64,000 bases of DNA, taken from NCBI GenBank assembly GCA_016841955.1, contig JAENYE010000004.1, positions 1 through 64,000 on the forward strand, written 5' to 3'. Shown piece by piece: positions 1 through 51,505 of this stretch (its first letter is position 1; the number at the start of each line of letters is the position of its first letter). A program made the translations under genes and the position numbers. The notes under the pieces are model-generated. The model made no database searches. It was not told where the DNA came from and saw only the letters and a program-made list of their open reading frames with translations. Source of the stretch: Methanobacteriota archaeon. Its GTDB lineage: Archaea > Halobacteriota > Methanomicrobia > Methanomicrobiales > Methanoculleaceae.

Positions 1-88
1 GGGTATTCCCTTGCGGGAAGGGGGGAGACCCCCCTCCCCTGTCCCCACCCCCCCTGTGGCGATAGCCACCACGGTCCACTGCACCGGG
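1..88 (-). repeat. Dispersed G-rich hairpin repeat, copy 1
   Basis: On the minus strand this reads as a 27-nt conserved block (positions 60-86, beginning TGCAGTGGACCGTGG) followed by a G-rich tract (runs of 7, 4, 4 and 6 G) and a G/C hairpin with a T-C-T loop. The same block, 26 of 27 bases identical, followed by the same architecture lies on the plus strand at 51116-51183. It sits downstream of the pscS stop at the very edge of the window, so its full extent is unknown. No ORF is evident in it. Confidence 0.75.
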
Positions 89-193: not shown

Positions 194-1372
194 TCAGACA
201 ATATTCAGCCCATTCTCCCGCGCAATCTCGACAAACGACTCCCCGACGTGCCGGATCTGCTTTTCGGTCAGCCCGAAGGTGTTGAACTTCCAGACTTTGG
301 TGGAGCCGGGGATGACCCCGGTGATGCCCCGCTTCTTCAACTCGCCCGAGAGGAAGTAACCGCGCTTCTTGTGCTGCTGTGCCACCGTATCGAAGGATTC
401 GCGGGTATCGATCCGGGTCAGGGTGTGCTGCCGAGGGTAGTCGGAGAGCACCTTCGTCCCCTCGATGGAGAGGAGCGCGTCCACGACCGCCTGTGAGTGC
501 GCCACCTCGGTCTCCCAGTGCTGCACCCGCTCCCTGACGTGGGGGAACGAGGCCATCATGCCGACGACGGTGACGCCCATGAGGGTGCATCCCATCATCT
601 CCACCTCTTTGAGCCCGAACGTCCGTCCGGTCACGTCCCCCTTTGCCTGCGTCGTCCGGAAGACCCGCTCCGCGTGCTCTTTCGTCGTCGCGAGGAGGCC
701 CGAGGGGGCCGGGGCCGCCATGCTCTTGTGGCCCGACCCGACCACGAAGTCGGCACCGAGCGCTTTGCCGTCGACGGGCATGATCCCGACCGTGTAGGCC
801 CCGTTGACGAGGACCGGGATGTCGTACTGGTGGGCGACTTTTATAATGCCCGCGACGTCGTGAACGTTCCCGAACTGGTAGTCGACGTGGTCGACGAAGA
901 GCAGGGGTGGTGTCCGTGAGAACTCCCGGATCACCGCCTCGATCTTCTCCGCGGCGGCGTCGGGGGTGATGTGGTTCGCCGCGTCCTTCGGGATCTCCCG
1001 CGGAACCCCCCCCGCTTCCTCGACCGCCATGAACTCGGTGTAGTGGGCAAGCGCCGTCACGATGACCGGGTCGCCTTTCTCCACGTACGTGCTCGCGACC
1101 GCCTGGAACCCCCGGCGCGCTCCCGGCACCACCCGCACCGCATCCATATTCAGCCACGCGGCGAGGTCCGCGTGGAACTGCGCGATGGGGGGCTTCTGGA
1201 TGTAGTCGAGCCTGAAGGGGCTCCGGCAGTTGTCACAGACCGAGTAGCCGTCGCCGAAGGATATCGCCGCCTTCATGGCATCGGCGGTGAGCCGCCCGCC
1301 CGCCTGGATGGGGTCGATGTTGATGTACATCTCCTCGACGTCGCGGGATTCGATATCGACTGCGCACTTCAC
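194..1372 (-). CDS. pscS: O-phospho-L-seryl-tRNA:Cys-tRNA synthase (SepCysS)
   Basis: PLP enzyme that converts Sep-tRNA(Cys), made by SepRS, to Cys-tRNA(Cys) using a sulfur donor. It is the second step of tRNA-dependent cysteine synthesis in methanogens. The 392-residue length fits the family. A CDNC pair (Cys46, Cys49) and a later Cys (about 262, in MMGCT) match the three conserved cysteines that carry the persulfide in this family. The PLP lysine is Lys216 in GSGHKS. The ATG start overlaps the stop of the small upstream ORF by 4 nt, so the two are probably translationally coupled. SepRS is not in this window. The homocysteine operon at 32.9-35.5 kb is a related sulfur pathway. Confidence 0.95.
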   Translation of the reverse strand: MKCAVDIESRDVEEMYINIDPIQAGGRLTADAMKAAISFGDGYSVCDNCRSPFRLDYIQKPPIAQFHADLAAWLNMDAVRVVPGARRGFQAVASTYVEKGDPVIVTALAHYTEFMAVEEAGGVPREIPKDAANHITPDAAAEKIEAVIREFSRTPPLLFVDHVDYQFGNVHDVAGIIKVAHQYDIPVLVNGAYTVGIMPVDGKALGADFVVGSGHKSMAAPAPSGLLATTKEHAERVFRTTQAKGDVTGRTFGLKEVEMMGCTLMGVTVVGMMASFPHVRERVQHWETEVAHSQAVVDALLSIEGTKVLSDYPRQHTLTRIDTRESFDTVAQQHKKRGYFLSGELKKRGITGVIPGSTKVWKFNTFGLTEKQIRHVGESFVEIARENGLNIV

Positions 1373-50994: not shown

Positions 50995-51112
50995 ATAATC
51001 CTCTTTTTTGGAATCTGTTGAAAATCTGTTCCTATCTTCATCCCAACCCTGACGACGTTGGTGCTGGGCCGGCTTGCCCATGGGATCGGCCTTTTTCCTC
51101 GGACATGTCCCC
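50995..51112 (+). terminator. T-run terminator after the M42 peptidase gene
   Basis: AATAATCCTCTTTTTTGG right after the stop (about 50995-51012) is a probable archaeal terminator. The rest up to 51112 shows no ORF. Confidence 0.5.
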
Positions 51113-51290
51113 ATGCAGTGGACCGTGGTGACTATCGCCATTGGGGGTGGGGCTGACGGGGAGGGGGGCGTGCCCCCCTCCCCTGTCTCCATCTTGTACC
51201 TACTTTTCGTCCCCCACCTCGCCCGGCCTTCGGCCTCCTCCCCCGCCCTTGGGGCGGGGGCAGTCATGGCGATATGCAATGGACGGGACG
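51113..51290 (+). repeat. Dispersed G-rich hairpin repeat, copy 2, with inverted partner
   Basis: The unit at 51116-51183 matches copy 1 at the window start. It has the conserved 27-nt block, then G runs of 5, 4, 4 and 6 (51144-51168), ending in a perfect 11-bp hairpin (51158-51168 with 51173-51183, loop CGTG). A second hairpin follows at 51240-51260 (CCCCCGCCC/GGGCGGGGG), and a degraded reverse-oriented block (TGGCGATATGCAATGGACGG, 51266-51285). The arrangement is therefore roughly palindromic. No transposase is visible. Confidence 0.72.
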
Positions 51291-51505
51291 TCTGGAGCAT
51301 GAGCACCGCCAGGTGCGCAGTAGGATGTTCCTCAGGGAGCGTCCTTCGAGCATCGTCAGATGCGCAGCCGGTAGAAAGCCATGTCCCCAGAGTGCCCTTG
51401 GATTGCGACCATCTGGAGCAAATAGGTGGAGTTTCAACAAAGCCTTTTTTGACATTTCCCTGCACAGAAAGGATTAAAGTATCCTCCATGCAGAGCGGCC
51501 CCGGT
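51291..51505. other. Gene-free stretch before DUF421
   Basis: Contains two related segments (GAGCAT followed by a GCGCAG-ending block at about 51296-51325 and 51349-51370). These may be the remaining part of the repeat element. The right end has the probable promoter GGATTAAAGT (51471-51480) of the DUF421 gene. No convincing ORF. Confidence 0.45.

Follow-up and report, generated by a model that had tools for sequence, protein, structure and literature searches.

A genus-wide, hairpin-rich repeat family of Methanoculleus, part of which is probably inserted as MITEs by an IS5-family transposase

Repeat copies in the analyzed region

The window analyzed here (the whole stretch of 64,000 nucleotides) opens contig 5 (G000:C5:1) of a Methanoculleus genome of 2.43 Mb in 9 contigs, its base 1 being a contig end, and it contains two copies of one repeat. 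Copy 1 lies behind the 3′ end of the gene for Sep-tRNA:Cys-tRNA synthase (194-1372, minus strand; TIGR02539, NF006810), in the same orientation as this adjoining gene. Copy 2 follows an M42-type aminopeptidase gene; it is located in an oligo-T tract at a distance of 8 bases from the stop codon (50994), shortly after which lies the left target-site duplication (TSD) CTTTTTTG. The features of both copies are the following:

15 to 83, minus strand: copy 1, with the 5′ end block at 57-83, the G-tract at 29-54, the hairpin loop at 26-28 and the C arm at 15-25
51003 to 51010: left TSD of copy 2, CTTTTTTG, of the 8 bp that fit the class and found on both sides (8/8) at the orthologous site of G012 (L044)
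51011 to 51444, plus strand: copy 2 as a whole, a TIR-bounded MITE of 434 bp (from the sequence, L204 and L044)
51011 to 51026, plus strand: left TIR, degenerate (GAATCTGTTGAAAATC against the consensus GGCTCTGTTGAAACCC)
51114 to 51140, plus strand: conserved 27-nt block TGCAGTGGACCGTGG...TATCGCCA, whose last 8 bases (51133-51140) form the 5′ arm of the outer core stem
51143 to 51168, plus strand: G-run tract 5-4-4-6, which serves both the GGGGGTGGGG stem and the GGGGAGGGGGG hairpin as 5′ arm
51173 to 51187, plus strand: C-rich 3′ arm of the main hairpin, CCCCCCTCCCCTGTC
51211 to 51218, plus strand: CCCCCACC, proposed 3′ partner of the GGTGGGG stem (centroid structure and fold of the other strand)
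51225 to 51235, plus strand: GGCC-TTC-GGCC hairpin, which is GCGC-TTC-GCGC in other copies (double compensatory change)
51237 to 51263, plus strand: CTCCCCCGCCC ... GGGCGGGGGCAG hairpin
51267 to 51274, plus strand: TGGCGATA, 3′ arm of the outer core stem and partner of TATCGCCA at 51133-51140
51275 to 51369, plus strand: nested short hairpin modules of a second repeat family, between the core and the 3′ end
51370 to 51383, plus strand: conserved 3′ end block GGTAGAAAGCCATG (consensus GGTGGAAAGCCGTG)
51430 to 51444, plus strand: right TIR, AGTTTCAACAAAGCC
51445 to 51451: right TSD, (C)TTTTTTG, in which one C is either absent or common to the duplication and the TIR

Direct reading of the sequence showed that the 27-nt block is identical at 26/27 bases between the two copies. 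In copy 1 (minus strand) TGCAGTGGACCGTGGTGGCTATCGCCA is followed by G7-T-G4-ACA-G4-A-G6 at plus-strand positions 54 to 29, and in copy 2 (plus strand) TGCAGTGGACCGTGGTGACTATCGCCA is followed by G5-T-G4-CTGAC-G4-A-G6 (51143-51168), the loop CGTG and C6-T-C4 (51173-51183). These run and loop lengths agree with the initial annotation, which had reported the block together with G-runs of 7-4-4-6 and 5-4-4-6; its description of the repeat as standing at both ends of the window is true of copy 1 alone, since copy 2 lies at 51.1 of 64 kb. The core of copy 1 is in the inverted orientation, with the signature GACAGGGGAGG, whereas that of copy 2 carries the CTGACGGGGAGG signature, and the difference between the loops (ACA in copy 1, CTGAC in copy 2) is the one predicted by inversion of the core.

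Copy 1 is cut by the contig end at base 1. Approximately 7 of the 18 contig ends of this assembly are in or near a repeat copy according to BLASTN, and the truncated copy at position 1 is explained by the assembly having broken there. The position of copy 1 and the several contigs that end in copies would also suit an assembly artefact or contamination, yet the repeat is internal in many independent assemblies, including the single-contig genomes G003, G020 and G024, and the chance of such an origin is negligible.

Copy number and host range

A 25-nt pattern (up to 3 mismatches) matched 13 places in the window's own genome versus 0 for the reversed-pattern control, and BLASTN with the longer copy (196 bp) led to at least about 40 separate places, the best paralogue having an E-value of 1e-45; chance does not account for the repeat. 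Adding three places found by the pattern search alone, the repeat occurs at no fewer than 43 places in this genome. All 24 other genomes of the genus that were tested have it, as against none of 16 that represent other genera within the order. Concerning the pattern scan of one genome per species, the hosts among the matches listed are Methanoculleus or MAGs assigned to Methanomicrobiales/Euryarchaeota. One exact match, also among those listed, belongs to a MAG labelled Alphaproteobacteria (L095, CALMYM010000361.1) and is probably a mis-binned contig. The count of genomic copies and the search of relatives, which had been proposed along with the first two copies, have been carried out, and they revealed many copies across the genus and not two alone. 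Copies of the core element were also seen in head-to-tail tandem in some species (L075, L099, L101, L113, L089). A literature search with limited search terms found no description of the repeat in Methanoculleus.

Core structure and the G-run tract

The long form of the core consists of CAGTGGACCGTGG-n-TATCGCCA followed by GGGGGTGGGG-CTGAC-GGGGAGGGGG-loop-CCCCCTCCCC-TGTC and, onward, by a variable stretch, CCCCACCCC, GGCCTTCGGCC, CTCCCCCGCCCC-loop-GGGGCGGGGGCAG, TGGCGATA and GGTGGAAAGCCGTG; the short form is devoid of the last two hairpins. RNAalifold recovered the stems of the long form. Among 36 copies the named stems were paired in 96.4% of cells, with a few G-U pairs and a covariation of 0.105 versus 0.057 in shuffled alignments (0/500), and 21 cells were changed on both sides versus 5.9 in the shuffles. 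Most of these double changes come from the hairpin that alternates between GGCC/GGCC and GCGC/GCGC, in which both sides are changed in 9/36 sequences at two pairs. Additionally, run lengths agree between the two arms of the main hairpin in 83/112 copies (43 expected). A ninth pair of the outer core stem was considered and rejected, the outermost pair varying independently.

A canonical four-run motif is present on at least one strand in 61/86 copies, both window copies included, which is what would be expected if a DNA or RNA G-quadruplex of four G-runs were the selected feature, pausing polymerase or binding a protein. However, 25/86 copies lack the motif on both strands, and nearly all of these 25 keep a perfect hairpin arm of at least 7 bp, in most of them 7-13 bp long. 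Perfect hairpin arms of at least 6 bp were found in 83/86 copies and of at least 8 bp in 76/86, while the arm in shuffled cores is typically 5 bp and mostly 4-6. Across the 86 copies, then, four G-runs are not kept independently of a complementary partner; the G and C arms co-vary in length, and elsewhere in the core there are C-rich/G-rich pairs with compensatory changes for which a G-quadruplex has no need. The thing conserved is the pairing: within GC-rich hairpins the G-run tract makes up the 5′ arm, opposite co-varying C-rich partners. The initial claim of a preserved G-quadruplex, against which the loss of the four runs in other copies had been set beforehand as counter-evidence, is thus left unsupported, because 25/86 copies lose the motif while nearly all of these keep a long hairpin, and we consider a selected G-quadruplex very unlikely. 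The G-run tract probably persists instead as one strand of palindromic hairpins that is copied with the element. Where a complementary C-tract adjoins them, four conserved G-runs in a repeat do not necessarily indicate a G-quadruplex.

Between the same asymmetric ends the core was found in direct orientation in 47 and in inverted orientation in 15 of the 86 parsed copies, with 24 unclassified. Inversion may come about when the inverted repeats TATCGCCA and TGGCGATA recombine, and an inversion by recombination between terminal inverted repeats has been documented for Wolbachia insertion sequences (PMC3004938).

Placement relative to genes

Genes were called with a simple home-made caller, and intergenic gaps of at least 250 bp, element-bearing gaps included, served as background. 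Of 115 copies, 62 are flanked by convergent, 44 by codirectional and 9 by divergent genes, and 4 overlap coding sequence. Convergent sites are enriched (62/115 copies versus 64/235 gaps, p = 2e-6) and divergent ones depleted (9/115 versus 59/235, p = 8e-5). The copies would collect behind gene 3′ ends through AT/oligo-T targeting combined with selection against disruption of promoters and genes.

The same location (62/115 convergent) could also indicate that the core is a structured RNA, a 3′-UTR element or transcription terminator kept for a post-transcriptional function. In agreement with this, the plus strand folds strongly (-90.7 kcal/mol, z = -2.65) and codirectional sites have a weak orientation bias (28 to 16, p = 0.10). 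The other strand, however, has a fold at least as significant (DNA z = -3.86), the outermost stem pair varies independently, the core occurs in both orientations, and G-U does not consistently exceed A-C (in the main hairpin, the A-T pair has 4 of each). Nothing in Rfam matched the repeat at gathering score, and the Rfam search by E-value returned chance miRNA/snoRNA-like matches alone. A retained RNA function is accordingly improbable, if less so than the G-quadruplex.

TIR-bearing copies and a probable IS5-family partner

Some copies are bounded by the TIR GGCTCTGTTGAAACC and its complement. This TIR is enriched over a reversed-pattern control in most genomes of the genus, for example with 53 versus 0 in G045, and in the window's own genome the pattern gave 17 versus 1. 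For 53 TIR pairs, the identity of the 8-bp flanks is 0.785 versus 0.365 when permuted (maximum 0.458); the duplications are perfect in 23/53 pairs at 8 bp, in 1 at 7 bp and in 0 at 9 bp, and they average 67% AT. The class consequently has the TIRs of a MITE and, by the permutation control, a fixed TSD of 8 bp, the TIRs of copy 2 being degenerate and its right duplication one base short. Full TIR-bearing copies measure 329-348 bp without inserts, and the 434-bp copy 2 has nested hairpin modules inside and no visible transposase coding. In G012 the orthologue of copy 2 (L044) is flanked by CTTTTTTG on both sides (8/8), and this shared insertion indicates that copy 2 predates the split of the two species.

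Two kinds of small element share these TIRs, one with the G-rich core and one of about 207 bp without it. The coreless MITE has perfect 8-bp duplications at L169, L221, L231, L232, L183, L245 and other loci, and L169, the only copy of about 207 bp that was read, contains a long internal inverted repeat.

A 1010-bp insertion sequence in G046 (L282) has the same TIR ends and the TSD CAAGCATC, perfect on both sides. Its protein matches the IS5 transposase model NF033579 with 211 bits (cut-off 140) and also PF01609, and homologues of the element were identified in G022 and G012. The repeat MITE and this autonomous IS5-family element consequently have TIR and TSD length in common. The ISH1 group of IS5 is mostly archaeal and makes 8-bp duplications, and the 1010-bp partner is like the IS5 family in its two protein matches and in its 8-bp duplication; unlike insertion sequences of that family, the Methanoculleus repeat lacks a transposase gene of its own. 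In G006 no fewer than 5 identical ends of the IS5-type element lie at five contig ends (L255, L257, L259, L264, L266), a sign of recent multi-copy activity in that species. A search of the window's own genome revealed no IS5-type partner, which makes present mobility there doubtful. Other sources of the transposase had been considered. IS6, the first guess from the TIR and the 8-bp duplication, is absent from the own genome and present in 1/35 genus genomes; a transposase related to IS1595 occurs in 1/35, and ISL3 in 0/35.

Taking the sequence comparisons together, we favor, with a probability of about 0.75, a genus-wide non-autonomous hairpin-rich family whose TIR-bearing subset would represent MITEs inserted by an IS5-family transposase acting in trans. 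The unit would be a GC-rich multi-hairpin core between two short conserved ends, GTGGACCGTGG... on one side and ...GGTGGAAAGCCGTG on the other; for some copies, copy 2 among them, this unit would lie inside a MITE with GGCTCTGTTGAAACC TIRs, and the transposase would insert it with an 8-bp duplication into AT-rich, often oligo-T DNA.

Copies without TIRs

A TIR or TSD is not recognizable in most copies, which in the own genome number at least 30 and include copy 1. In the own genome they have other flanks, of about GAACAGTTGAAACGAGGAAAAAGCCCGGTGCA, and the ends of 39 such copies revealed nothing clear above noise as a shared duplication, the reason why TIR-less copies are not classed as MITEs. 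Several copies occupy the same place in different species, which shows that several of those without TIRs are old. Empty sites were compared at L130/L059 and three more loci; core-free regions exist there, too diverged for the junction to be recovered. The L022 site in G022 retains a degenerate 3′ end. The TIR-less majority may descend from older insertions. The proposal that a structured element is actively spreading consequently holds in part: the element is structured and genus-wide, and some copies have TIRs and 8-bp TSDs, but most copies look old.

The BOX, ERIC and REP/BIME repeats of bacteria are modular imperfect intergenic palindromes with conserved ends and a variable middle, limited to a genus. 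The Methanoculleus repeat is like them a modular imperfect palindrome located between genes, with conserved ends around a variable middle, and genus-limited; they differ in having no TIR or TSD of this type, and their sequences are unrelated as far as we know. The family could be a domesticated palindrome of this type, bound by a host protein and unlinked to IS5. Its intergenic imperfect palindrome, the conserved unpaired end blocks GTGGACCGTGG and GGTGGAAAGCCGTG, the TIR-less majority and the copies that species have in common at the same place would fit such an origin, but many core-bearing copies have a TIR together with an 8-bp TSD, and we hold it to be a tentative alternative, clearly less likely than insertion by the IS5-family transposase.

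Nested hairpin modules and possible mobility of the core

Short hairpin modules of the GAGCACC...GGTGCGA type make up a second family. They are inserted at recurrent positions of the core, often in both arms of one hairpin (L083, L009), and with them the MITE grows from about 340 bp to 817 bp. The site filled at 51275-51369 is also filled in L267, L268 and L235 and empty in L243 and L154, and at L180 a TIR element has a hairpin module alone in place of the core. The modules have constant linkers and very varied stems, with GAG/CTC flanks in several cases; they were located at window positions 51275-51369, at L083 879-1060, and at L009, L007, L152, L235, L263, L268 and L270. An apparent tandem amplification of modules beside a GGCTTTGTTGAAACC end at L250 (G020:C1:222254-223228) produces long spurious open frames.

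The GC-rich invertible core might itself be a separately mobile module, propagated by a hairpin-based process independent of the IS5 transposase. It would then move among host elements (the GGCTCTGTTGAAACC MITE, variant backbones such as those of L073 and L206, and the TIR-less ends), enter them in either orientation, and itself receive small hairpin modules at corresponding sites of its two arms. We regard this as possible, with the odds against it.

Relationship to known elements

A MITE of Haloquadratum walsbyi shares just its ends and duplication length with its transposase donor, and a functional donor can be missing (PMC3119063). The TIR-bearing Methanoculleus copies are like these MITEs in being short and non-coding, in sharing TIRs and TSD length with a transposase element, in the sometimes absent partner transposase and in the nesting of mobile elements in each other (PMC3119063); unlike them, they have a large GC-rich multi-hairpin core in both orientations, and most copies of that core are TIR-less. 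Like the PATEs and SMRs of Haloquadratum, the family is palindromic and present in many copies, and it includes small inverted-repeat modules inserted into the palindromes of other elements (PMC3119063). PATEs are linked to IS605 and lack terminal repeats, and SMRs make no target duplication (PMC3119063), whereas part of the Methanoculleus family has TIRs. By analogy, the hairpin modules recall the SMRs that attack Haloquadratum palindromes. Overall, the repeats would make up an unusual, nested and hairpin-rich family of non-autonomous mobile elements.

Methanoculleus species are widespread biogas methanogens, and this class of repeat is apparently undescribed in the literature searched. Apart from explaining where the assembly breaks, the repeat offers palindromic elements that are nested, can be dated and mostly follow the 3′ ends of genes, and the two core orientations together with the module insertions in matching arms make questions of hairpin-driven DNA movement testable.
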